Shown here piece after piece: positions 3,031-34,180 of a stretch of 34,180 nt of DNA. How positions within the stretch are numbered: position 1 is the stretch's first letter; the number at the start of each line of letters is the position of its first letter. The position numbers and the translations under genes are program-made. The notes below the pieces were generated by a model that was not told the DNA's origin, made no database searches, and was given only the letters and a program-made list of their open reading frames with translations. The stretch spans positions 1 to 34,180 of the forward strand of contig JWZX01002778.1 of NCBI GenBank assembly GCA_001275005.1, in the 5' to 3' direction. The DNA is from Chrysochromulina tobinii. Lineage: Eukaryota > Haptophyta > Prymnesiales > Chrysochromulinaceae.

Positions 3031-3347
3031 GTGAGAGCTTCTCAGCTTCAGCCTGCGCTGTTGTTCACGGATTTGAGACAATTCCGGTATAACCAACGCA
3101 GGTTAAACTGGGGTGGGACACAATGCCCATCCACCTCACTCAGGGGAATGTGTTAATGGCGCTACACATTCTAATACACATCCTGTGTGGGGCCACATGG
3201 CACATTCTCGCCCCGGTGTCGCTATGTGCAACTATGGCCATGGCTCACGTCCGTGGCACGTCGCCCGCGCTCTCCGCGGCCACTTCAGGTTCCGACGGCG
3301 GCGACAGCTCTGCCAGGCGGTCCTGCCGGCGTCCGCCCGCGCGCCGC

Positions 3348-19785: not shown

Positions 19786-22136
19786 ATGGCTCACATCATT
19801 GCGCAGGCCGCATTGCTGCTGCGGCAGCTCTCGCCCGCGGACATTGCATCAGATGAAGCTGCCGAGCTACGCGAGGTGGGTCTCGCGCTCTTTGGACGGC
19901 TGGCGATAAAGCAGGCCTACGGTGAGAAGGACGTGGTAGAGTTCCTAAGGGAGCAGGCAGGCCACCGAACGCTGCTGAAGCGCCTGGAAAAATTGCAGAA
20001 GCAGATTAATGCGGAGCACGATCGTCGCTGCGCAGAAGCGCAGAGCGCTGGCATTAACCGTGCGCGGCAGGCAACCATGCAGGCCATCGAGGCCGCATCC
20101 GCCGAGGCCGATGACGAGGCCGCTGTGGAGCTCATCAAACAATCCACAGACCATGCAGGCACCCCTGCACCGCATCCATCGGAGCCGTGCAGTGAGCTCG
20201 TCATGGCTCCGCCGAGTGTCGCGGCACCGCCCTCGGGCCCACCGCGACTGCCTCCGCGCGCGTCGATCGATGCAGCCGTGAGCGACGCGGGTGAGGTGGG
20301 CAGCGCTGTCGCAAGCGCGGCGCGTCTGCCTGTGGGCAGCTTCCGTCGTGCGTGCGGCGTGTGCAAGCGCTCATACGCCGACGTGCACGACTTCTACCAT
20401 CGCCTATGCCCCACCTGCGCCGAATTCAACCTTGCAAAGAGGCTGCAGTCGGCCAACCTAGGGGGGTACGTGGCACTCGTCACAGGCGGCCGTGTGCGCA
20501 TCGGGTGCGCGATCGTCCTCCGGCCTGATTGCCTCAGATTGCGAGCTCTGACGTCCTCTGATGAGCTCTGCTCAAAGGTACGAGATGAGATCGTGCTCAA
20601 GCTGATCTCAAGCTGATGACCTCACTGATGACCTCACTGATGACCTTACTGATGACCTCCCTTGATTGCCATCCCTAATTAGGTACGAGATCGTGCTCAA
20701 GTTGCTCCGAGCGGGCGCGCATGTGATCGCGACGACGCGCTTCCCCTCCGACGCGGCACAGCGTTATGCCCGTGAGCCTGACTTTGGGACGTGGTGTGAA
20801 CGGCTTGAGGTCGTGGGTCCGCTTGAGCTCGCCAACGTCCGACAGGTGGAGGCTCTGAGTGCCTCGGAGTGCCTCGGAGTGCCCCTGAGTGCCCCTGAGT
20901 GCCTCTGATGTCCGGCAGGTGGAGGCTTTTGCCGCGGCGCTGCGTGAGCGCTTCTCGCGGCTGCACATCCTGATCAACAACGCCGCACAGACCCTCACAC
21001 GCGAGCCTGGCTGGTTTCTGCGCATGGATCGTCTCGAGAGCGTCGCCGCCGCCGCGCTGCCAGCTGAGGGGCGCGCACTGCTTGTCCACTCGGAGGCCTA
21101 TCTGCTCAGGACGGCGCTCCGTGCTGGCCTACCCTCCGCCGAGAGTGCTGCCGCGGCGTACGTCGGCAGCAGCAGCGGCGGCGGCGCAGGCAAGGGCGAC
21201 CCTCACACTGCAGGTGGCACTGCATGTGGCGTCCTGCTTCCGGCGGGACGAGCGCACGCGGCGAATGGGTTGGAGGAGGCTCTTACACCAAGTTTGAATG
21301 CACACCAGGAGGCCCTTGCACCGGATGCGCCAGCGGGGGGTTGCCTTGTACACTCCCCCGCCGTCGCCGGTGCGATTGTGATGGCCAAGGGGCTGGGAGC
21401 CGCTGCCGCGCAGTCGGATGACGGTGGCGGACATGGCAGTGAGGTAGGCTTGTCCGCGGCGGACCTAGCCGCCTTTCCCGAAGGCAAGCTCGATGAGACG
21501 TGGCAGCCCCTCGACCTCTCTACACAGGTGATTCCCACTGGATTGCCTCTGGTGTGAATTCACACTTGATTGCCTCTGAATGGGCGCGCCATCTATGTGA
21601 AGCCCCCTTCTCTCCCGGCCTGCTCACACCAGAACTCGTGGTCGCGCCGTATCGGCGAGGTCTCAACCTCCGAGCTGCTCCACACGCTCAGCGCCAACAC
21701 CGTCGCCCCGTTTGTGCTGTGCGGCGCGCTCCGGTCGCTGCTGGCGGCGCCCGAGGACGATCCCGACGCGCCCTACGGACACATCATCAACGTGTCCGCT
21801 CTCGAGGGCAAGTTTTCGGTGGGTAAAAAGGGGTCCGGGCACCCCCACACGAACATGAGCAAGGCCGCGCTCAATATGCTGACGCTCTCAAGCGCAGGAG
21901 GCTTCTTTTCGGAGAGGGTGCTCGTGAACGCCGTCGACACCGGGTGGGTGACCGATATGGCGCCGGGCGGAGTGGGCGCCGTGGCCGCGACGCACGCGAC
22001 GCACGTTGGGCCGCCGCTCGACGCCATCGACGGCGCGGCCCGCGTGCTAGATCCCATCTTCAGCCACGTGCGCGACCCACGCGGCTTTCTGGTGCGAGGC
22101 AAGTTCTGGAAGGACTACTGCGTGTCTAATTGGTGA
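19786..22136 (+). CDS. Short-chain dehydrogenase/reductase with N-terminal zinc ribbon, four exons
   Basis: Inferred exons are 19786-20504, 20683-20845, 20919-21527 and 21633-22136. They join in frame to 664 residues. The frame also runs upstream to 19702, but without an ATG. A helical, coiled-coil-rich N-terminus is followed by a CxxC...CxxC zinc-ribbon-like module (Cys190, 193, 208, 211). The Rossmann domain has VTGGRVRIG (nucleotide binding, to Gly240), ILINNAA (Asn314-Asn315), IINVSALEG (Ser552) and HPHTNMSKAALNM (Lys574). The usual catalytic Tyr four residues before Lys574 is Thr570; I recall HTNMxKA in relatives, so this may be a subfamily trait. A low-complexity insert fills much of exon 3. 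The substrate is unknown. NAD(P)-dependent redox chemistry is expected of the fold but unproven, given the missing Tyr. Confidence 0.82.
20505..20682 (+). other. Intron 1 of the short-chain dehydrogenase gene (178 nt)
   Basis: The GT donor is at 20505 and the AG acceptor ends at 20682. Splicing joins RVRIG to YEIVLKLL in phase 2 and restores the dinucleotide-binding motif. Inside, a decayed copy of the downstream exon start (AGGTACGAGAT, at about 20576 and again at 20681) is followed by four tandem TGATGACCTCAC-type units (about 20614-20660). Confidence 0.8.
20846..20918 (+). other. Intron 2 of the short-chain dehydrogenase gene (73 nt)
   Basis: This is a phase 0 GT-AG intron. An 18-nt direct repeat (GTCCGRCAGGTGGAGGCT) spans the donor (20837-20854) and the acceptor (20910-20927), exactly one intron length apart. 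The interior is a 10-nt tandem repeat of GAGTGCCTCG type. The intron is therefore a tandem duplication around an AG|GT site. Confidence 0.82.
21528..21632 (+). other. Intron 3 of the short-chain dehydrogenase gene (105 nt)
   Basis: This is a phase 0 GT-AG intron. Splicing joins LDLSTQ to NSWSRRIGEVST, giving the expected family sequence. A CACTKGATTGCCTCTG word is repeated inside the intron, at about 21537 and 21563. Confidence 0.8.
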
Positions 22137-22348
22137 CCTGCCGGAAAGTATCGTGGGGGCGAAATTTGTAGATGCGACCGGAGGAGTGTGGCTGCAAGAT
22201 GGTAGGTCCCATCCGGGGAATTCACAGTTGGAAGTTTCACGCAGTCACACGCATGTGGAGAATAATCGGCCTCCGGACTCAGGGGACGCACCCTCGTCCC
22301 GTTGATTAATGGAGAATCCGATGCCGCCGTCTTCTCTCGACCACGCTC
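22137..22348 (+). other. Putative retrotransposon 5' UTR / host junction
   Basis: This 212 bp segment lies between the dehydrogenase stop and ORF1. It must contain the element's 5' junction and any internal promoter. No TSD partner for the sequence after the TTAC tail was seen, so the boundary is unresolved. Confidence 0.35.
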
Positions 22349-25300
22349 ATGACGCGAATCCTGAACGCTGAAGCTATGAACCTCGCGACCCCTGGCAAGG
22401 ACACCTCGAACCCCGACAAGCCGCCGCCAAAGAAAGCGCTCTTCTCATCGCCGCCGGCGCACACGTACACCACTGACAAAAATCTAACACCAAGCACGAC
22501 CGAGAAGCGCAACACTCGGGAGAGCAACTGGGTGCTTCTGCGCGGAGCTAGCATCGACACGAAGCCCGAGCAGAGGGTCAAGGACACGATCGAAGTTATC
22601 GAGACCGAGCCACTGCTCGAGGGCATCATGTTCACGAAGCCGCTTGAGGTGACCTCGACTGCTCTGGTCAAGATCACAACCGGGTCGCTCGACGGCTCCG
22701 CAGTGCACATGCATCAGAACCTCGTATTTCTGAAGGAAGGGCTCCCGAACATGCAGGCGATGCTCGTGCTTCCCAAGACGGCCTGCGTCGGCGCGCTCGC
22801 CTCGCAGCTTGCAGGGTGCTACGGCGTCTACCAGCGCATCCAGCACATGACGCAGAAGGAGAAGTGGGACGAAGCCCGCCTCGCATGGATGAAGAACGTG
22901 GACAAGCTGTTTGATACCGGCACTACTGGCGAGTTCGAGATGAGCTTCGAGCGCAGCGTCGATCGCCACAAGGACAAGATCAAGTATTGCTCTGACGCTA
23001 TGGCTCTTGGCTTCGCGTCGTGGGCGCTCCCGCAGGTGATCAACTCGCTCGTCGCGGCTCTCAAACTCGAGGAGTGGATGGTCGCCGACCCTGATTGGGA
23101 CGCCGCGGACGTTGACGACCCGGCCAATGCGGAAAAGTTGGGGGCTATGCGCAAGCATTTTCACGAGTTTCAGACTGAGCTCAATTCAGCGCTCAAGGCG
23201 CTCGGGATCCAAGGTCCAGAGCGCGACGACGGGTGGGTCGCCTACCCCGTGGACAAGACGGTGGAGATCACGGCGAAGGGGCTAGAGGTGCTGCGCCTCC
23301 CGTCTGGCGACAAGGTCGAGGTGAAGAAGCTCATCTCCACCGAGGAGCTGCTCTCCGGGGTCGATGTCTACGTCGCGCCTCAGGCCGGCATCTTCAACAT
23401 CAAGCGTGCCTTCCGCGAGGGCGGAGACGGACTCGAGGCCGTGATCACAGAGCTGGGCGACGACGTCAGCCAGATCATCCCGCGCATTGAGATGGACACG
23501 GAGGCGACTGGGCTGATCAAGCTCACGCTCCGCATCAAGCTGACGTCGGAGAAGGCCGTCGAGAAGAAGCTGCAGGCGCTCTGCAAGGACTCGCGCAACG
23601 AGCTGACGGAGACCAAGGGCGTGCCGACGAAGCTCGCATCAGGCGACGAGGTGCGCATGATCTGGTCGGGCGACCTGGGCACGGCACGCGTGCGCAACGG
23701 CCTCAATCGCATTGCTGCAATCACGGCCGAGCAAGGCATCAAGAACTCGGAGGAGGTCAAGAAGCTCAAGGGCGAGCTGGAGAAGCAAATCAAGGTGAAC
23801 GTCGATGCCATCCTCGAGCAGGATGCCAAGATCACGGCGTACTCCGCGCACATGCAAGGGCTCATGGACAAGCAGGCCACAGTGATGACCGAGATGCAGA
23901 ACCAGCACGCTTCGGCAATGGATGACCTTCACAAGCAGATGGCGGCGAGTGAGGTGGCGCACACGACGCACACGACGGACCTGCACAAGCAGATGGCGGA
24001 CACGGACGCGCAGCACGCGGCAGCGATGGACGACCTGCGCAAGGTGGTCCTGCAGCAGCAGCAGCAGATGGGCGACATGCAACAGTTGGTCCAGCAGCAG
24101 CAGCAGATGCAGCTCACCTTCACGACGCAGTTTGGCGATCTCTTCAACTTCATGAACGCTGTCACTGCCGAGATGATCGAGCAGCGCAACGCGGTGAAGG
24201 CCTCGGTGATGGCTATCAAGGAACTCAAGGACGGTCAGGCGGCAGGGTATGTGGATGCGATAACACGGCGGCAGTGCGCGGTGCTGCGTCAGGTCTTTGC
24301 CATGCACAAGCGAGTCACCGCTCTTGCATCTCTCGTACGCACAGGTCCGACTGAGAAGCGACTGGTGGAGGACGACGTGATGAGTCAAGACTCCCAGGTA
24401 GGAGAGGGGGATGGGACGAAGGCAGACGAGCAGGCTAATGTCGAGGGCAAGCATGGCGCGAGCCGTGGAGGGGACGTGCGAGCCCGCGAAGGAGACGCAG
24501 CCGTAGGCGCAGCTGCGTGCGCGAGGCTGACCTCGGACACCCGAGGAGCCGATGGACCTAACTGGTCGGCAGAGCCCGGTGGACGAGTGCCCCATGAGGG
24601 TGGACAGAGCATAAACTGTGCCGTGAGAGAGAGCGGGAGCACTCGAGATCACCGATCCGGAGAGAGTCCGCCATGGATCAATCGGCGAGGAGGGGCGAGT
24701 GGCATGTTAGACGGACTGTGTGGCATATCGACTCTGGGCGTGTCATACGTCGAGTTTGTGTCTATGTCTCCATCGATACCTATGTCGGCTTCGAGGATCA
24801 ATTCACTGCCAGTCCGCAGCGTCATAGAGCGTCGAGTCGGGCACGACAAGTTTGGAGTTTTTGCGAGCACGCGTGGTTTTCATGTGATACTCGTTCTACT
24901 TCTCAGCTGCGCGGCACGATGCGAGGCGTTCTCTGGAGTTGCTTCGTGTTGCACGACGATGGAGCTGCGACGCGCGGACGATGCGACTCTACTGTGTCGG
25001 GATACGACGGAGATGCGTTGCTACGATCAGGCGGTGTTGCAACGCTTTGGGATCACAGGGCGTGGGGCCTCGTGCGGCGACGTGGGGTCGGCGTTTTGGA
25101 AATGCTTCGACACGATCGAAGGTAATCCAACACCAACGGCGATCGGCGCAGCAACCGAGCGAGAGGCAGAGCCAGAGCCTAGCCCGAGGTGCATCGCAGA
25201 GCACCCTGCCACGCCGGCCACCGCGGCACGCTCGATGCGCACCTCGACCGTCCCACTATACTCTCGGCCGACGCCAAAGTGCACGCCGATCGGCACGCCG

Positions 25301-25447
25301 CGCACCTCGGCGGCCCTCTGGCCGTTGATGTGCCACGCGAGCACGCCGCCGGCGAGCGTCATGCGGATCCGATCTGGGCACCAGATGGTCAAAATGAGAG
25401 CGGGGAGCGATCGACAGACAGGCAATCATCGACGGATACGCCGATGA
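22349..25447 (+). CDS. Retrotransposon ORF1 protein (coiled-coil, Gln-rich)
   Basis: The protein has 1032 residues from ATG 22349. No CCHC zinc knuckle, RRM or esterase motif is visible, so it does not match the standard ORF1 types I know. Residues about 1-60 are polar, and 60-460 look globular but unrecognised. Residues about 465-615 are a strongly helical coiled coil with repeated DLHKQMA and AMDDL units and a Gln-rich block (about 567-589), likely for multimerisation. The last 280 residues are low-complexity with a short hydrophobic stretch (VILVLLLSC). The stop (TGA 25445-25447) overlaps the ORF2 start (ATG 25444-25446), suggesting stop-restart translation. By analogy it packages element RNA. 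The tail may be compromised, since antisense sequence near 25190-25362 looks more protein-like than the sense frame. Confidence 0.72.
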   Translation: MTRILNAEAMNLATPGKDTSNPDKPPPKKALFSSPPAHTYTTDKNLTPSTTEKRNTRESNWVLLRGASIDTKPEQRVKDTIEVIETEPLLEGIMFTKPLEVTSTALVKITTGSLDGSAVHMHQNLVFLKEGLPNMQAMLVLPKTACVGALASQLAGCYGVYQRIQHMTQKEKWDEARLAWMKNVDKLFDTGTTGEFEMSFERSVDRHKDKIKYCSDAMALGFASWALPQVINSLVAALKLEEWMVADPDWDAADVDDPANAEKLGAMRKHFHEFQTELNSALKALGIQGPERDDGWVAYPVDKTVEITAKGLEVLRLPSGDKVEVKKLISTEELLSGVDVYVAPQAGIFNIKRAFREGGDGLEAVITELGDDVSQIIPRIEMDTEATGLIKLTLRIKLTSEKAVEKKLQALCKDSRNELTETKGVPTKLASGDEVRMIWSGDLGTARVRNGLNRIAAITAEQGIKNSEEVKKLKGELEKQIKVNVDAILEQDAKITAYSAHMQGLMDKQATVMTEMQNQHASAMDDLHKQMAASEVAHTTHTTDLHKQMADTDAQHAAAMDDLRKVVLQQQQQMGDMQQLVQQQQQMQLTFTTQFGDLFNFMNAVTAEMIEQRNAVKASVMAIKELKDGQAAGYVDAITRRQCAVLRQVFAMHKRVTALASLVRTGPTEKRLVEDDVMSQDSQVGEGDGTKADEQANVEGKHGASRGGDVRAREGDAAVGAAACARLTSDTRGADGPNWSAEPGGRVPHEGGQSINCAVRESGSTRDHRSGESPPWINRRGGASGMLDGLCGISTLGVSYVEFVSMSPSIPMSASRINSLPVRSVIERRVGHDKFGVFASTRGFHVILVLLLSCAARCEAFSGVASCCTTMELRRADDATLLCRDTTEMRCYDQAVLQRFGITGRGASCGDVGSAFWKCFDTIEGNPTPTAIGAATEREAEPEPSPRCIAEHPATPATAARSMRTSTVPLYSRPTPKCTPIGTPRTSAALWPLMCHASTPPASVMRIRSGHQMVKMRAGSDRQTGNHRRIRR
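25027..25425 (-). other. Antisense open frame within ORF1 3' part, possible captured domain
   Basis: On the minus strand an open frame includes MTLAGGVLAWHINGQ (ATG at 25362) and then VRGVPIGVHFGVGREYSG. The regular beta-strand pattern resembles SPRY- or concanavalin-like sandwich domains. The sense frame over the same bases is Pro/Ser/Thr-rich and featureless. It may be a host exon fragment captured in reverse orientation, or chance. Low confidence. Confidence 0.3.
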
Positions 25448-28400
25448 CCATTACGAATACGGCAGGCGGAGTCGAACTCGCCTTTACGCAACAGTCAGCG
25501 CGCGTGCGGGGAGCATCTTGGCGCGTTACGAGATGCAACAGCACGGTGGCGGTTCCGGACGGCTTGCGACGGCGACGCCTTCGCTGGCACGTCAGCCGAC
25601 GAGCATGGAAGAGGCTAATGAGGTCGCTGCGTGGGAACACAGTTGCAGACATGTTCAACGTCGCGCTCTGGAACGCGCGCGAATTCCATGCGGACGCGTG
25701 TCCTGCTCACGAGGCTTCTCGAGCGAAAGCGCTGTGGATCATGCGAAGGTTACAGGAGGAAGATGTTGACGTCTGCTTCCTGCTCGAAGTGATGGGATCA
25801 CAGGATGCGTTCACAGCTAAGACCTATGGGTTGCGAGCTATGGCGAAGAAGGTTGGCTATGTGGTTCGCTGGATGGTTGGCGAGGGTGGGAGCCAGCGTG
25901 AGCAGCGGCAAAGCGGAGTATCCTTTACCAATGGCATTGCCGTACTCGTTAAGCAAGCGACCTGCGCCATCGAACGACACGTGCGGCTCGAGGAGAGGGT
26001 TCTGGGCGTATGGATCCAAGGTCGGGGAACAAAGGAGCGAATCCAGACGAGGATTGCCGCAGTTCACGGGCTGCATTACGACGGTACCTCGAACTTCGTG
26101 AAACAACTGCAGGCCACGTATGCGTGGGCGGCCGACCCAGCGCAGACCGTGAAAGGATGTCTCGTGGTGGGCGATTTCAATTATGTTGCCGACGAAGCGT
26201 GGCGATCGTCGCACGCAACACTGAGCGCCAACGACCGGGCGTTTCGTGATTACAGCTCGCAGCCGGGGGCTGAATACGTCTTACCTGTTGCTTCACAACC
26301 TTTGGTCGTTTGGACTCGGAAGGGCGGGGACGTTGCCGAGACGAGCAATTCCGAAGGCTTTGGATCCATGCTCGATGGCGCCGTCACGATAGGATCCGAG
26401 TGTGGGTGTTGGAGGAGGACTGTGGTGGATTTCGCTTTCAGCCATGACGGCCCGGCGACGGGCACAGCCAAGCCGCTCTCTGATCACGCGTGGGTCACCT
26501 TCTCCAGAGAGATTCCACAGTTGGAGCTTAGAGGGGAGAAGCGACCTTTATCGGCACTATCAAGAGGTGATGTGCAAGCCAAGGACAGTTATCGAGATCG
26601 CGTGCGAGAAGGCGACGTTGTCGAGGACCTTTTATCGGTGCGAGGATTGGTTCACGCGACTTCCTCTGCGGTTCGATTGCTACGAAGAGCGGCTGAGCAG
26701 GCCGTGGCGGAGGTGCGGAGACGTCGTGAGGATCGGCCGCTGGAGACGGCGCACAGGTGGCGCAGGTGGCTGCAGGAGGCGTATGCGGCGCGGCGCCAGG
26801 GTCTGGCACCGCACGAGGTGCATGGTGGCCTTTTCAACTACCACTCGCGTCTATGGCTCATTCGTGAGAGATATAAGGGAGCTGGAGACGATGTATGTTG
26901 GTCCAAGATCATCAGGCGCTGTCGACGGTGCTGGACGAGGGCGACCCAGAGACTTGTGTTTCGGCAGCAGCGGGAGGATAGGCGTCTTCGCGAGCTATCG
27001 CTGAGCATCGTCGAGGGCAAAGGCAACAAAGACCTTGCGCAGGTGGCGATGCGAGCCTGGAAGGCGATCCGCCCGCAGCGCGTCAGCTTGGCGTTCGATC
27101 GATTTCACCCAAAAGATGACGTTCACAGCGCCCCAACTCTCGCGGCTGACGACCCGGACGCTTTTCTAAGTGGGCTTGCACGTGAAGGCGATCGATTAGT
27201 TCATGGTCTCTCGTCCACTCCGCCGATCATTGAGGCGTTCAAAGCCTTTTGCAAGGTCTTTTGCCCAACCTACGACACACTACGTGGACGTGACGGCGGT
27301 GAGTGGGAACTCTCCAAGGAGCTGACTTTCCCAGTCTTTTTGCAAGTGCTTCAGCGCGTTCCGAGGGGGAAAGCCGTGGGGTACGGCGGCTTTTCCATCG
27401 AACTTCTCATTCACGCCGATCGGGGGATCAAGAGAGCCTTCTATGATTGCCTTATGGCGGATTTGCGGGGAGGAGAGTTCCCACCGTCGTGGCGGAAGGT
27501 CATCTATACGTGCTGCTAACGAAGCCGCCGCCGAGTAATCCCGCACTGATCTCCGAGAGACGAGAAATTGCCTTGATGGCGCAGGACATGAAGCTGATCA
27601 TGCACATGGTGCGTGCAACGGCGTATCGGCTCATTACGGGTAGACTACGATCCGAGCAGTGCGGCTGGCTGCCTGGGTACGGCACTGTCGATGCTGGGCT
27701 CCCGTTGGCAGCCGTGATACAGCAGGCGCAGCGCCTACATCAATCGATATGGATACTGTACGTCGATCTGGCGACGTTCTTTCCTCGTATTGACCGTGAG
27801 GCTCTCACCGTCGCCGAGCTGTTGGTCGGGCTCCCCCCGCAAGTTATTGAGCTGGTTGGGCAAATTTACGGCGCTGGACGAGCGGTGGCAGAGGAAGCGG
27901 TTGAGTGCCAATTCGACACGTCCATCGGACTCAGTGCCTCTTTCCGAAATCACATGGGAGCCTTGATGGGGGAGGTGCTCTCTCCTGATCGAGCGAAAAT
28001 CATTCTCAACTCGATCTTGTGGGCGATCAAATTGCACGTGCACGGGGTGCAGCTCTTTGGGTTTGGGGAGGATGAGGAGGGATGCATTCGTGCGATTGCG
28101 AGCTTGGCCTACGCACAGACGATTGGGCGGGTACGTTTGGCAGCGAGGCGGATCTGAGGCGTGCCTGGGCGATATGGAGCGTTTGGGTCCCGATCTCCGG
28201 CTCTAAGTTGGGCATCAAAGGCAAACTCAAGACCGTCGTCACGGGAGTCATTCGAGATGGGCAGGGCAAGGAGAGCGATATCCCTGACCCGCAGCTTGTC
28301 ACGCTCGATGGCGTCCGCGTGCCTACTCTTTCGCGGAGTGAGGCCTACAAACATCTAGGGGTGCTGCGCGCGGCAATAGGCGGAGATGGGGCGGCGGCCG

Positions 28401-31400
28401 AATCGCTCAAGAAGCAATTGCGGGTCGCGATCGGTCGTGTGGCGCGCATGCACAAGCCGTCCAGACACGACATGGTCTTGGTAACGAATGGCCTCTTTCA
28501 GGGGCTGGCGGGCTTCAAGTGCAGCACGGTGTACTACTCCTTTGAGTGGATGGAAACCGTGGAACAGGAGTGGAGGAGAATGTTCAACAAGAAGGCACGA
28601 CGAGACGCAACTACGCCAGCGTGCCTGCTGTATGAAGGCGGGGGCGGCGCGGCAGAAGGTCGGCGACACCTGTGGGCGATTGGGTGCGCCTCGTTTTACG
28701 TGGCTTTCACCAGAGCACTCTCTGACGCCGCCGACACTTCTCAGCGCGCAGCGGCACGATCGGCGTTGGCGCTCAGCCTGTCGAGGTGGGGAGCGCAGGG
28801 AGACCCGAGGTTGTTCTCTTGGCGCCACCTCACGAGCGCTCTCGAGAGGCAATTACGAGGCCGCCAGCGGTACCTTGGGGAGACCTTCATGCTCATCTCG
28901 AGCCTCCTGCAGGGTGATAAGCCTTCCGGGGAGAATTGGCGGTGGGTGCAGCGCCCTGAAGCGTGGGACCCGCTGCACGAGCAGCGCCCTCACTTTCGTA
29001 CGATGGAGTCGATCGCGCTCTTTGAACCCGAGCAGCAAGGTGGCCTCGGCATCGAGCCTGCGCCCAAGCTTCTCGACGCGCGCATTCGCGTGGCGGGGCA
29101 GATGTACGCATGCAGCGGCATGCACGAGGAATCTAAGCTGATGTCTTTCGATGAGGCACGTCGGATCTATCCGTGGCTGGGCGTTGGAGCACGCACGGAG
29201 TGGGATAGGACGGTGGCGAGTCTCGAAGATCGCCTTGACGCTGGAATGGTGCCGGAGCGCGAAGCGTGCAGGGCTTGGGATCAGCGCGGGCTCTGTGTCG
29301 GCGGCGGAACCGTCAAGCTTAGTGGCAGCAGTGCAGGTGAAGTGTCGAGGACGGATGAGGCGAATGAGCGCACGTTGCACGAGGCCATTCGGCGTGCGCT
29401 TGGTGAGATCAAGCGCGGCGCGGTGCTCACACCTTTCGATTGGGAATCTTCTTTGCGAAGCACGTTTCGGGGGATCAGGAAGCCGAGCGCCGAGGAGTGG
29501 TGTGTTGGGGGTGGCGACACTCAGGCGGATGCGCGGGGGGGGCGAGTTTTCTGTGACATCGACAGCGCAGAGGAGCCACGGGGCGGTGAGGCATCGTGGC
29601 TTTGCCGAGCGGACGTCGACGAACAGGGATTTCTTTTCGGCTGGATGGACCGCGCGGGCGAGATACGAGCACGGTTTCACTTTGACACGGCGGGCTACCT
29701 TTGCTTGCGAGGTGGTCCAAGACTCCAACATCAACACTTAGCACAACTCGACCCCGCGGTGCAGCTAGTGGCACGGGCGCGGCTGGCACTTGGCGACGTT
29801 GACGTCCTCCCGGGGGATGGGACGAAGAGGCAGGCGACACATGTGCAGCTGGCCGCGCAGCGTGGTCTTTGGGAAAAGCTCACGACGTGGTCGGCACGTA
29901 TCAGGGCGACACGTATTTATACGCTGGATGGAGGATGGCGTGACGTCAAGACGGACAAAGGGGTGGTGAAAATCGCCACGAGGGCGGCGATCGACCATGA
30001 GGGAAATGTCCTCGGAGGGCGGATTTGCGAGGAGGACGTGAACGAGGATAACTACATCGCCGAGCTCGCCGCACAACTCGACGCGCTCACTGACGCGGTC
30101 TCGCGAGGGACGGAGGAGAGGGTCATCATCGTCTTCGACGCCACATCACCGGTCAGGGCGATGCTTCGCTTTGGGCGGCTTAGCGCTCGTGCACGTGGGG
30201 ATCGGCTGGCCGCCGAACTCCTCGAGCACTTTGAGCGTCTCCGGCGGCGGGTGTCGGCCTTGGTGCTAATCTGGCAGACGTCGCACGTGGGCGAGCCAGT
30301 CAATGAGTGGGTTGACATGATGTGCGACAAGTTTGGAGTGGATGATGATTACCCGATCCCGCGAGGCAAAATTGCTTTCGCCTCGGTCGTCTTTCCGGAC
30401 CATAGGGGCCCGGCACAGGCGTACGCCATGCGTGGCATGAATCGTGTCGTTGCACAGCGCCTACGCAGTCGGGTGCGAGATACGATACTGCGAGATCCCG
30501 ATGAGCATGTGAAACTGTTGGGAATTACATCAGAGGCTCAGCAGATATGCGACGAGATCGCAGCGCGGCGGTGTCAATACGTCGATCAGCCGTACGCAGA
30601 GCCGCGAGCGCGACGAGTTTTGGCGGCTGAGTGGTGCCCCTTTGGCTGCACTGATCACGACGGGCGGTGGCGAGAGATCCATCCGTCGGCGGTAGCGCGG
30701 CGAAGGGCGCTTCATCTCCCCGAGCTCGCGAGCCTCATTGCGGCTCGTCTTGGGGCGCAATCTGGTGCGACTTGTGAGATCTCGTCACAGGAGCGGACGA
30801 ACTTAGGCGGAAGCGAGGTGCAGCCGGGAGACGCGGTTGGAGGGCGGGGACGGTGGTTCGCGCTTACTGAGCGATCTCCCACCTGGTGGCACTTTCAATT
30901 CGAGTGTACGGGGGCGCCACTGCTGGCGGCGCGGAAAGCATACGCACTTGCAGCGGTGGCGGCGCGGCGATGCATGGTCGCCCTGCAGAAGGGACGCGAG
31001 CTTGTCCCGCACAGCCAACTCGATGATCTCATTTTGCTCATACATCAAGGATTGAAGGGCTGGGAGGCAGAGGACAAGGCTACAGGGTCGGAGGCTCAAC
31101 AGCAGAGCCTCAAAAATCGGATCCAGAGGGGAATCACTGACGCCTGGGAGACAGAGTGGCTACGAGCAGGAGCCGCAGGGGCCGTGCGAATCTCTGGCTC
31201 GAGGGCGGATGCCAACGGACGATGGAGGCTAGCTCTGACGGAAATGGTACTGAGTGGGTGCCAGTTGCAAAAACTAGGCAAGGAGAGCTGCGCGGAGGGG
31301 AGGAGGGCGTTCTGGGAGCGCCTCGGTGACCTTCGCATTCTCGGCAAGATCTTCGCAGCTTGGAGTTCCGCTCTCTTGCGCACCACGACGCTGCGGGCAG

Positions 31401-32578
31401 CGGCGCTGCGAAACCTGCGGTTGGCGAGGGAGTTTGTCACGCGTGTCACGACGGGCGAGAGGCGACGCTTACGCAAGGAGGTCGGAAGGAGGCTGGCCGC
31501 GGTTGACGAGGAGCAGGCTGACAATGCGCCAGGCGAGTGGCTGCAGCTGCGAGCTTGGTTGGCTTGGCGCATGGTGCTCGCGCAAGGGCTAGGCAGAAGC
31601 GGCAGATGCATCGTTCACGGGCCGACGCGCGACTCCTTGTGCGAACAAGTGCTGGAGTCTTCCACGGGAAGACAACAAGAGATTGCGAGGGCTCGCGAGG
31701 GCGTCGCGGCGCTGAGGTCGAGGCAAGGGCGAGCGTGGCGGCGGTGGTTGCGCACGGGCGGCTGGGCAGCGTTTGACCTTTGCTTTCAAAAAAGGGAAAG
31801 GATCATGAGGAATCGATCGCTCGCGGCGCAGCGGGATGGAATGCGACGATGGGCGTGTCTGGCGGATGGCACGAAGTGGCAAATCCTCACTGAAGCTGAG
31901 ACGGAGGAGCGGTTCGAACTTCGACACGAGGGTCTGCGGGCCCTTCTCGAACTCAAACAGGTTTTGAGTGATGGCGAATGGAAGGCTCTGGGCATTCACA
32001 ATCTGCGACTCGGGCATTTTATCAGGGTCGAACACTTGTTCTACGGGCCGGAGCAGGCCCCCTCGTGTCACACGTTGAGTGGGCATGAGGCGATGGACGT
32101 GGGTAACTTAGTGCGAATTGAGATTGAACCCAGATGGGACCCGCATCGAGCGAAACGGCGTCGGCAGGAGGTACTGAGTGCCAGGCGCGACGTTCGACAA
32201 CGCGTGGCGATGGGCCCCGTGGTCGCTGGTCAGGAGGCGGATGATGGAGGACGTTGGGCGGTGCGTCGCATTATGGCGGTGCGCCGTCACGAGGGGCGGC
32301 GCGGTCGCCCTCTGGACGTACTCGTGGAATGGGAAGGCGAGGACTCTGACGGGGACCTCTGGGAGGAATCCTGGGTCAGCGTTACCTATCTCTCGAAGGA
32401 CCTGCGTGACGAGGCGAGACAGCTCGAAGGCGAGCTGTTTGGGGCGCGAGGTGCGCACCAGGCGCCCAGTCGGCGGGCGGCGCAGCGAGACGAGGCGAGA
32501 CAGAGGCAGGAGAGAGAGAGAGAGCGCATGCAATGGAGCGCTCGGCTACGAGATCGGGCGAGAGGGGCACCCGTGTAA
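25444..32578 (+). pseudogene. Retrotransposon ORF2 polyprotein: APE endonuclease, RT, RNase H, chromodomain (two frameshifts)
   Basis: About 2376 conceptual residues. The APE domain has Asn at 25672 (LWNAR), Glu at 25786 (LLEVMG), GDFN at 26170-26181, VDFAFSHD, and SDH ending at 26487. The RT has GKAVGYGGFSIELL, motif A YVDLATFFPRID (Asp at 27765), the motif B-like MGEVLSP, and motif C YA/DDW at 28110-28126. RNase H acids are Asp 29927, Glu 30062, Asp 30137 and Asp 30314; their spacing (45, 25 and 59 residues) is close to other RNases H. A long basic region with a possible CPFGC..H..H finger (about 30633-30720) leads to a chromodomain (32255-32440). Two +2 insertions shift frame: a TA doubled at about 27505-27508 and a CA doubled at 28114-28117, the latter within YADD. 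The reading frame is otherwise open, so the protein was recently functional. Confidence 0.85.
32255..32440 (+). other. Chromodomain at the C-terminus of ORF2
   Basis: The region reads WAVRRIMAVRRHEGRRGRPL, then VLVEWEGED, LWEESWV and a closing helix LSKDLRDEARQLEGEL. This matches the chromodomain plan of three strands and a C-terminal helix. Of the HP1 aromatic cage (Tyr24, Trp45, Tyr48), the first position is Trp and the second Trp. The third is acidic. Histone-tail binding is therefore plausible but perhaps altered. Confidence 0.72.
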
Positions 32579-32717
32579 CCCCGCAGCTCTCGAGCCGCAA
32601 CCGTGGGTTGACTGGTGGCTTTCATCAGCTTCAACTCCCGTGTTGTTGAACACCGTACACGCTTAGTATGCCTGGGGGAGACCCCCTCGCCACGTGTGCG
32701 CTGCCAGTGGGCGTTGT
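32579..32717 (+). other. Retrotransposon 3' UTR
   Basis: This is the 139 bp between the ORF2 stop and the TTAC tail. It contains a small palindrome-like GGGGGAGACCCCC (about 32673-32685). In non-LTR elements the 3' UTR is usually what the RT recognises; that role here is inference. Confidence 0.5.
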
Positions 32718-32737
32718 TTACTTACTTACTTACTTAC
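32718..32737 (+). repeat. (TTAC)5 tail, probable 3' end of the retrotransposon
   Basis: Five perfect TTAC units lie 140 bp after the ORF2 stop. Short tandem-repeat tails in place of poly(A) are known for several non-LTR families, so this is the likely 3' terminus. It could instead be an unrelated microsatellite. Confidence 0.7.
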
Positions 32738-33125
32738 AGGTTTCAGACTCGTGAACCCTTTTTTCTCGCACGTACCGCTACCGGTACAGCCCGTTCGTCG
32801 CACGAGCCAAGCAAGGTTTGGGGTCTTTCGGTAAGGGGGCCGAGCAAGAGCGGGGCGCAGGCGCTAAGTTCTACAACAGCGAGCCCACGAATGAGCCGAC
32901 GGTGCATGCGTGTGTGTGAAGAGGCGGGGCATACATGTAGGCTCACACCATACCATCCCCTTCGGGGGACGCAGAAACAGCATAGGCGAGGTTCGCACCA
33001 GTGGCCCTACGACCGTTACTGACCCGCTTCTGTGGGAAATTAATTAGAACAGGTTTTCTGTGGGAAATAATAAGACCGGCACACATGACTTCGCAGAGGA
33101 ACGCGGGCCACAGGTTTTCCTGAGC
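32738..33125. other. Spacer downstream of the retrotransposon
   Basis: This 388 bp region contains TACCGGTA at 32779-32786 and a repeated TTCTGTGGGAAAT word (about 33028-33040 and 33056-33068). It presumably holds the promoter of the following gene. No gene is visible. Confidence 0.45.
32779..32786. promoter_or_regulatory. TACCGGTA palindrome
   Basis: Exact octamer about 40 bp after the (TTAC)5 tail and 340 bp before the Ser-Pro-rich gene. If host-derived, it supports the end of the retroelement lying before it. Confidence 0.3.
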
Positions 33126-34180
33126 ATGCCGGCCAGTACTGCCTGGGGGCAGTGCCTGTGCGTCGCCATCGCTGTCGGGGCCTCGGGTGTTATAGGGGGG
33201 TTCGTTGGGCACGATGCCCCCCTCGACTCCCCAGCCCGAGCGTGCGCGCCAAGCTACGCCATTGCTGAGCCGGCCTCGGGGGTTATAGGGGGGTTCGTTG
33301 GGCACGATGCCCCCCTCGACTCCCCAGCCCGAGCGTGCGCGCCAAGCTACGCCATTGCTGAGCCGCATGCAGTCGTGCTCAGCTCTCGATGGACTTCCAG
33401 CGATCTTCAAAGTGAGACGGGTCGATTCGCTTGCCTCAGCTTCACCAGGCCAAGCCGCGCAAGATACTACAACGGGGGTGATATTCATTTTCATCATCCT
33501 ATGCATGGCCATCATCCCCATCATCCCCATTCTCCACATACGCATACCCCTCATTCGCATACCCCTCATGTACATTACCCTCCGCCACCCTCGCCGCCGC
33601 CGCCGTCTCCGCCACCACCATCGCCGCCACCAGCACCACCATCACCGCCGCCATCGCCCCCGCCGCCTCCATCACCACCTCCTCCTTCGCCGCCACCAAC
33701 GCCGCCTCCATCACCACCTCCTCCTTCGCCGCCACCAACGCCGCCGCCACCGCCTTCCCCTCTGCCACCCGAACCATCGCCACCACCACCCTCTACTCCG
33801 CCACCGTCGCCTCCGTCATCTCCACCCTGCCCATCGCCACCCCCTCCGTCACCGCCTCCCCCGTCTTCGCCTCCGTTGCCTCCACCACCCTCTCCTCCGC
33901 CACCGTCGTCGCCGCCGCCGCCGCCTTCGCCACCACCCTCGACACCACCATCGCCACCACCACCAAGTCCGCCCCCATCCCCACCACCACCACTTCCACC
34001 ACCACCTTCACCGCCACCACCATCACCGGAACCGTCTCCTCCACCACCACCTTCTCCCAGATCACCATCGCCATCACCGCCTCCATCTCCGCCACCACCG
34101 TCCCCGCCCCCGTCGCCACCTCCTCCGTTGCCACCACCACCATCCCCACCGCCACAACCACCTCCTCCGTGTCCACCACC
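33126..34180 (+). CDS. Secreted Ser-Pro-rich (HRGP/extensin-like) protein, 3' truncated by window end
   Basis: The frame opens after a TAG at 33045-33047, starts at ATG 33126 and remains open for 351 codons to the window edge, so the C-terminus is missing. The N-terminus MPASTAWGQCLCVAIAVGAS looks like a signal peptide or signal anchor. Two near-identical 31-residue repeats follow (ASGVIGGFVGHDAPLDSPAR and on to SYAIAEP). After a unique segment of about 38 residues comes a His-rich stretch (HFHHPMHGHHPHHPHSPH) and then about 200 residues of PPPSPPPP-type sequence. That is the composition of hydroxyproline-rich glycoproteins such as extensins and pherophorins in algal walls and scales. The opposite strand is also open but Val/Met/Glu-monotonous. 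Export, a signal peptide and a synonymous difference between the repeats all favour the plus strand. Confidence 0.72.
   Translation, partial: MPASTAWGQCLCVAIAVGASGVIGGFVGHDAPLDSPARACAPSYAIAEPASGVIGGFVGHDAPLDSPARACAPSYAIAEPHAVVLSSRWTSSDLQSETGRFACLSFTRPSRARYYNGGDIHFHHPMHGHHPHHPHSPHTHTPHSHTPHVHYPPPPSPPPPSPPPPSPPPAPPSPPPSPPPPPSPPPPSPPPTPPPSPPPPSPPPTPPPPPSPLPPEPSPPPPSTPPPSPPSSPPCPSPPPPSPPPPSSPPLPPPPSPPPPSSPPPPPSPPPSTPPSPPPPSPPPSPPPPLPPPPSPPPPSPEPSPPPPPSPRSPSPSPPPSPPPPSPPPSPPPPLPPPPSPPPQPPPPCPP
33180..33365 (+). repeat. 93-bp tandem duplication, in frame
   Basis: Two adjacent 93-bp copies (33180-33272 and 33273-33365) differ at a single base that I can see, a GGT/GGG glycine wobble position. Each contains a short inverted repeat, GGGCA-CGA-TGCCC. 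The unit length is exactly 31 codons. Confidence 0.92.
33582..34180 (+). repeat. CCN-rich low-complexity tract coding Ser-Pro repeats
   Basis: About 600 bp of cca/ccg/cct/tcg codons encode irregular PPPS, PPSPPPP and PPPT blocks. A 45-bp word (CCTCCATCACCACCTCCTCC and on, about 33664 and 33706) is directly repeated. Variation in length between alleles is expected. Confidence 0.85.

Follow-up and report, generated by a model that had tools for sequence, protein, structure and literature searches.

The window analysed here, a stretch of 34,180 nucleotides forming positions 1 to 34,180 of Chrysochromulina tobinii contig JWZX01002778.1, carries on its + strand, at about 22.3-32.7 kb, a non-long terminal repeat (non-LTR) retrotransposon of the long interspersed nuclear element (LINE) type, and the end of its second open reading frame (ORF2) is a divergent chromodomain. 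This domain belongs to the regular make-up of a wide clade of related elements and is not peculiar to one copy. Its likeliest role, to which we assign a probability of roughly 0.6, would be to dock the element's protein on chromatin before target-primed reverse transcription.

A divergent chromodomain at the end of ORF2

The stretch GRWAVRRIMAVRRHEGRRGRPLDVLVEWEGEDSDGDLWEESWVSVTYLSKDLRDEARQLEGELFG lies near the end of an open frame at 28,076-32,578. A sequence-only reading of the window had proposed that a chromodomain core occupies 32255-32440 at the ORF2 C-terminus, and these limits agree with the predicted strands at 32255-32287, 32312-32338 and 32360-32380 and the predicted C-terminal helix at 32396-32440. 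The predicted structure of the core, with a mean predicted local distance difference test (pLDDT) score of 76.9, shows the fold of the chromodomain superfamily, in which a three-stranded sheet is packed on a C-terminal helix.

The alignments include A1, which joins the window to 12 of 24 earlier proteins; A2, made of 7 of 8 loci, with a near-duplicate omitted; and A4, which holds 26 LINE domains (the window plus 25 of the 59 domains given by the iterated profile described below), none of them a known chromodomain. Near-identical rows, the divergent matches of P0039, P0041, P0055, P0068 and P0070 and the first P0044 copy were left out of A4. Searched against all PDB sequences, the A4 profile had chromodomain Y-like protein as its best match, at an expectation value (E) of 2.1e-6, and among the best 60 of 125 matches at E <= 10 the first 51 were chromodomain proteins, followed by a SAWADEE domain at E 0.052. 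When A4 was aligned by hhalign with seven chromodomains of the same genome, a value of 95.3% was obtained (E 2.4e-8). These profile matches, together with the predicted fold and the constraint described below, bear out the proposed chromodomain, and the lack of any profile or structural match, which would have spoken against it, was not observed.

Several results weigh against this identification. The gathering cut-off of Chromo (PF00385) is 25.1 bits and single sequences all fall under it: in searches with the cropped window, Chromo was the sole match at E <= 10, at 15.0, 15.7 and 17.3 bits (E 0.023, 0.014 and 0.0046), and the best single relatives reached 24.9 (P0064), 22.3 (P0053) and 21.2 bits (P0045). 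The whole 1,500-residue frame gave no match to Pfam. Of the 13 rows of A1, 4 were matched by Chromo at E <= 10, as were 8 of the 26 in A4, where three other families matched one row each. With A1, which is restricted to close relatives, hhalign gave 45% (E 2.2e-4) and the PDB search E 0.13-0.51. Foldseek placed an HP1 chromodomain first for the cropped model, at E 0.73, and an unrelated chain first for a longer model, at E 0.087, with no match at E < 0.001 for either. That longer, first model has a disordered N-terminus and a mean pLDDT of 61.2; its Foldseek list is headed by non-chromodomain chains, while its VIA list has eEF3 at the top and then mostly chromodomains. Of the checks that the sequence-only reading had called for, Pfam Chromo gave a sole but sub-threshold match, and structure prediction the expected strands and helix with a weak Foldseek score.

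A troponin chimera that phmmer found in PDB at E 0.0072, above chromodomains at 0.083 and 0.11, was taken as a chance match, because it is absent from the listed rows of the profile searches. In this genome the Pfam Chromo scan gave 59 matches (E <= 0.001), none of which is a family copy; a Pfam scan therefore underestimates such domains. Pfam on the window alone would have meant rejection, and the identity of the domain was settled only by the family profile.

The aromatic pocket and its likely role

Aromatic residues had been claimed at two of the three positions that form the HP1 cage, and this is what the alignment gives. On the + strand, cage position 1 (Y24 of fly HP1) is a tryptophan at 32255-32257, position 2 (W45) is a tryptophan at 32330-32332 and position 3 (Y48) is a non-aromatic glutamate at 32339-32341, so that the window does not have the three aromatics of a canonical HP1-type (CHD_I) reader. 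Across the A4 domains, position 1 is W, Y or F in 25 of 26 and position 2 is W in all 26; position 3 is aromatic in just one and a gap in three. Judged from the aligned residues, the aromatic pocket is largely kept. A clade-specific W-xxx-W motif lies at 32360-32374 (+), its first tryptophan at 32360-32362 (W or Y in 23/26) and its second at 32372-32374 (W in 25/26). According to the hhalign pairing, the second apparently corresponds to the tryptophan of the chromodomain TWEP motif, and the first, in the loop, may replace the absent third wall of the cage. Two relatives, P0045 (residues 2374-2406) and P0053 (residues 1703-1735), have more canonical C-terminal chromodomains, apparently with a full aromatic cage that reads, by eye, F..Y..W.

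Taking these features into consideration, we hypothesize that this clade of APE-type non-LTR elements encodes a polyprotein with an ORF1-like part, an endonuclease, a reverse transcriptase (RT), an RNase H and a near-C-terminal chromodomain, and that the translated protein would bind its own RNA. The chromodomain would then dock the particle on nucleosomes by gripping, between its two conserved aromatics, a residue of a histone tail that is probably a methylated lysine; the endonuclease would nick nearby DNA, and target-primed reverse transcription would begin in that chromatin, with a presumed effect on target choice. A precedent exists in the chromodomains carried by LTR integrases (PMC5348765, PMC3350952). 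Chromatin-guided targeting by these elements is plausible.

A less probable, though possible, explanation is that the chromodomain fold is kept without methyl-lysine reading, as a shadow-like or nucleic-acid-binding-like domain that pairs ORF2 proteins, recruits a host factor or holds RNA or DNA. Some chromodomains do bind proteins or nucleic acid (PMC3350952), and the near-complete loss of the third cage aromatic speaks in the same direction; by eye, both flanks of the window copy are apparently ordinary genes, which also counts against chromatin docking. Against such a domain stand the first two cage positions, which are aromatic in 25 and in all 26 of the A4 domains, respectively: in plant LTR elements, chromodomains of group II have lost position 1 and usually position 3 (PMC3350952), and the retention of position 1 here argues for its use. 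We favor docking.

Retention in the genome and spread across the clade

The host is identified as a photosynthetic alga by 59 matches to light-harvesting proteins. Within the genome, all 14 loci with a match spanning the domain, the window included, carry it at the same place (L025 and L026, with a partial domain match only, are not counted), and these loci include subfamily B, at 43-46% identity. In eight copies of subfamily A, a set that leaves out L017 for its internal stop, the mean ratio of nonsynonymous to synonymous divergence (dN/dS) was 0.037 for the domain, 0.070 for the linker, 0.120 for the upstream part and 0.307 for the tail, where the Jukes-Cantor correction was defined for 21, 12, 20 and 26 of 28 pairs, respectively. 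The chromodomain is thus the most constrained of the four C-terminal regions compared; between the window and C1586 its dS is 0.93 and its dN 0.014. Along seven long ORF2 proteins, 185 of 2,265 segments of 50 residues were more conserved than the domain, mainly in RT and RNase H, and some of them overlap the domain. A sister LINE lineage of the same genome, related in RT and RNase H (C419, C2155, C577 and C1930), showed no chromodomain when 75 open frames of its loci were searched with three profiles (best E 0.36).

Relatives were chosen with the RT of P0007 alone, which gave 62 proteins with RT identity down to 37%; they come from public genome and metagenome data (environmental proteins). 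The presence of the domain was judged with a hidden Markov model of the window family iterated on the RT-selected and earlier proteins, and 50 of the 62 were long enough to judge, having at least 1,230 residues after RT. By the iterated profile, 44 of the 62 carry the domain, as do 43 of those 50; every match lies within the final 40% of its protein, after RNase H. Counting two further profiles, of own-genome chromodomains and of the wider LINE alignment A4, the number rises to 46 of 50: P0045 and P0053 were added by the former (E 1.8e-4 and 6.3e-5; Pfam Chromo on cut pieces, E 2.7e-4 and 1.2e-4) and P0059 by A4 (E 6.8e-6). P0049, P0073 and P0074 gave no match with any of the three profiles, and P0027, missed by the iterated profile, stops just short of the domain. 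Reversed and shuffled proteins yielded no domain under an i-E of 0.01, the best shuffled value being 0.015. P0044, P0051 and P0064 each carry two chromodomain copies. The domain is consequently more widespread than the sequence-only reading had suggested, and the counts of 14/14 loci and 43/50 relatives dispose of that reading's own doubt, that the domain might be absent from other copies and derived from an adjacent host gene.

A recent capture, local to this family, might be considered, with a host gene or the resident chromovirus as donor, since the same genome holds many other chromodomains (the 59 Pfam matches) and a chromovirus, C2236:14348-19915, whose RT, integrase and chromodomain share a single 2,463-residue frame. 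It is already contradicted by the depth of the distribution. Domain carriers have pairwise RT identities down to 0.40, and chromodomain distances track RT distances, with a Mantel r of 0.89 for 40 proteins (those of the 44 RT-selected carriers whose RT piece was long enough) and of 0.49 for 27 divergent ones, exceeded in 0 of 999 permutations each. On an RT tree of 57 of the 62 proteins and two frames of this genome, domain presence requires a minimum of just 4 changes, with P0045 and P0053 scored as carriers, P0059 scored as lacking, and P0027 and the domain-lacking proteins with fewer than 1,230 residues after RT unscored; this is a quick tree, in which 21 of 56 inner branches are weakly supported and no branch sets the outgroup apart. 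The distribution would fit an ancestral capture in the clade followed by few losses. That the resemblance is due to chance, or that the frame runs on into a neighbouring gene, is the least tenable explanation and, despite the sub-threshold Pfam score of the window alone and the whole frame without a Pfam match, is contradicted by the PDB profile and hhalign matches, the clean reversed and shuffled controls, the constraint and the same position in every spanning locus.

Some relatives also carry SET domains (PF00856), all above the cut-off: C-terminal to the chromodomain in P0051 (residues 2605-2718, E 7e-7) and P0058 (residues 2138-2252, E 5e-6), and N-terminal in the protein in P0056 (residues 44-158, E 4e-9). 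The three are mutually related. P0051, for which a single contig is listed, represents 58 member sequences, and this taken alone leaves room for mis-assembly; the existence of three separate SET fusions argues against it. In what we take to be the NHSC motif of SET, the asparagine is kept and the histidine altered in all three, by eye, and the methyltransferase activity of these predicted domains is therefore in doubt. Judged by coordinates, no family copy shares a frame with any of the 105 SET matches listed in the genome. The predicted SET domains of P0051 and P0058 would tie related proteins to lysine methylation. Tudor-like stretches seen by eye in the last 350 residues of P0073 and P0074, and in P0058 between chromodomain and SET, had no relevant Pfam support and are given no weight here. 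It is tempting to join these observations into one picture, a plankton LINE clade with an ancestral chromatin reader, its third wall rebuilt from a loop tryptophan and some members joined to SET, which would be a read-and-write system choosing, and perhaps marking, its insertion chromatin; as a whole we regard this as speculative and rather unlikely.

The element and its comparison with known systems

The element as a whole, on the + strand, begins with an ORF1-like N-terminal part at 22310-25447, with 47-58% identity to the N-termini of P0025, P0027 and P0031. It is followed by an APE-like endonuclease (Exo_endo_phos, PF03372, E 2.2e-8, above the cut-off) at 25669-26448, within an open piece at 25183-27519, and by an RT piece at 27447-28157 (PF00078, E 1.6e-4), which scores 21.9 bits, below the cut-off of 29.6, and whose frame, uninterrupted in relatives, is interrupted at both ends. 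The 1,500-residue open frame at 28076-32578 then holds the RT end, the RNase H region, the linker, the chromodomain and a basic tail. The RNase H region, at 29813-30352 with approximate ends, was placed by mapping P0007 residues 1396-1575 across and by homology to relatives with PF00075 (P0058, E 8.6e-7, above the cut-off; P0055, E 0.0016, below it); Pfam gives no match for the window's own region. A phmmer search of P0007 against PDB sequences found no relative. At the 3' end stands a simple-repeat tail, (TTAC)5, at 32718-32737. Most of the 20 loci listed have (TTAC)n tails followed by differing flanks, while L017, L025 and L032 have no visible tail. No target-site duplication was found at the window copy, whose 5' end is ill-defined. 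With the endonuclease upstream of RT, RNase H downstream of it and a simple-repeat 3' tail, the element is of the APE-type non-LTR class, as the sequence-only reading had it. No LTR-like pair occurs among the 20 largest direct-repeat families listed for 20,500-33,500, and none of the 11 integrase (PF00665) matches of the genome lies on C1620 or another contig bearing a family copy.

In the relative P0031, a single uninterrupted frame of 3,214 residues runs from the ORF1-like part through endonuclease (1095-1280), RT (1724-1940) and RNase H region (2475-2655) to the chromodomain (3097-3168), and the ORF1-like part is in frame with the remainder in P0025 and P0027 as well. Compared with P0031, the window copy has frame breaks at about 27.5 and 28.1 kb; there is possibly a further break at 25.2-25.4 kb, unless the element naturally has two ORFs that meet there. 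The window's own copy is broken, and an ORF2 that forms a frame of its own, as first described, does not hold for P0031.

Three side observations were made. At a subfamily B locus (L021, C1151), the sequence after position 2163 is by eye an apparent subfamily A 3' untranslated region, a possible nested insertion. Directly downstream of the window's element, 33164-33349 is a 93-base tandem duplication, 94% identical. At 33575-34180 the window holds a frame of (S)P-rich repeats that resembles, by eye, algal hydroxyproline-rich wall proteins.

Beyond the short preferred motif of the endonuclease, the site choice of most LINEs is an open question. A chromodomain kept clade-wide, close to the C-terminus of the protein that integrates the element, would open chromatin-guided target-primed integration to direct tests; if true, the LTR solution, an integrase joined to a chromodomain, was reached a second time with other machinery, and the SET domains found in a few relatives would supply a writer alongside the reader. 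Evolution in parallel with chromoviruses, as had been suggested, is compatible with the lack of an integrase match on family contigs and with the separate chromovirus C2236. The further remark that no chromodomain is known as a standard part of a LINE ORF2 agrees with the PMC literature, where none was found among the matches listed for chromodomain terms, subscription journals and Repbase reports being outside the scope of that search.

Captures of a chromodomain have been described for Ty3/gypsy chromoviruses, the oomycete Ty3/gypsy element Chronos and the diatom Ty1/copia element CoDi-I, all LTR elements (PMC5348765). The Skipper elements of dictyostelids, whose chromo domains are canonical or diverged, belong to the chromoviruses (PMC5006619), plant elements are described in a 2025 review as having chromodomains on integrases (PMC12477314), and the poplar centromeric LINE Celine is reportedly without a domain like the CRM chromodomain (PMC11288735). 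Chromoviruses such as MAGGY and CRM resemble the LINE clade in having a chromodomain at the C-terminus of the integration protein, with presumed chromatin targeting, but they are LTR elements with an integrase, whereas the LINE clade has endonuclease and RT and no integrase match. Chronos and CoDi-I are likewise independent retrotransposon captures of a chromodomain, and differ in being LTR elements with an integrase-chromodomain arrangement (PMC5348765). The cage pattern of the LINE clade is unlike both CHD_I, with three aromatics, and CHD_II, where position 1 and usually position 3 are lost (PMC3350952). With the chromodomains of HP1, CDY, CBX and MPP8 the LINE domain shares the predicted fold, the sequence profile and two cage aromatics; it differs by the missing third cage residue and a longer strand 2-3 loop with W-xxx-W. 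Among non-LTR elements, CR1/L2 LINEs carry a PHD finger, located in ORF1 in most cases and, in one subgroup, probably where ORF2 begins, for which a general integration-targeting role has been suggested (PMC4120745). They too have a possible chromatin reader, a PHD finger in contrast to the chromodomain found here near the C-terminus, after RNase H. What appears to be new is a chromodomain-bearing retrotransposon built on non-LTR integration machinery, the reported cases cited above being LTR elements.
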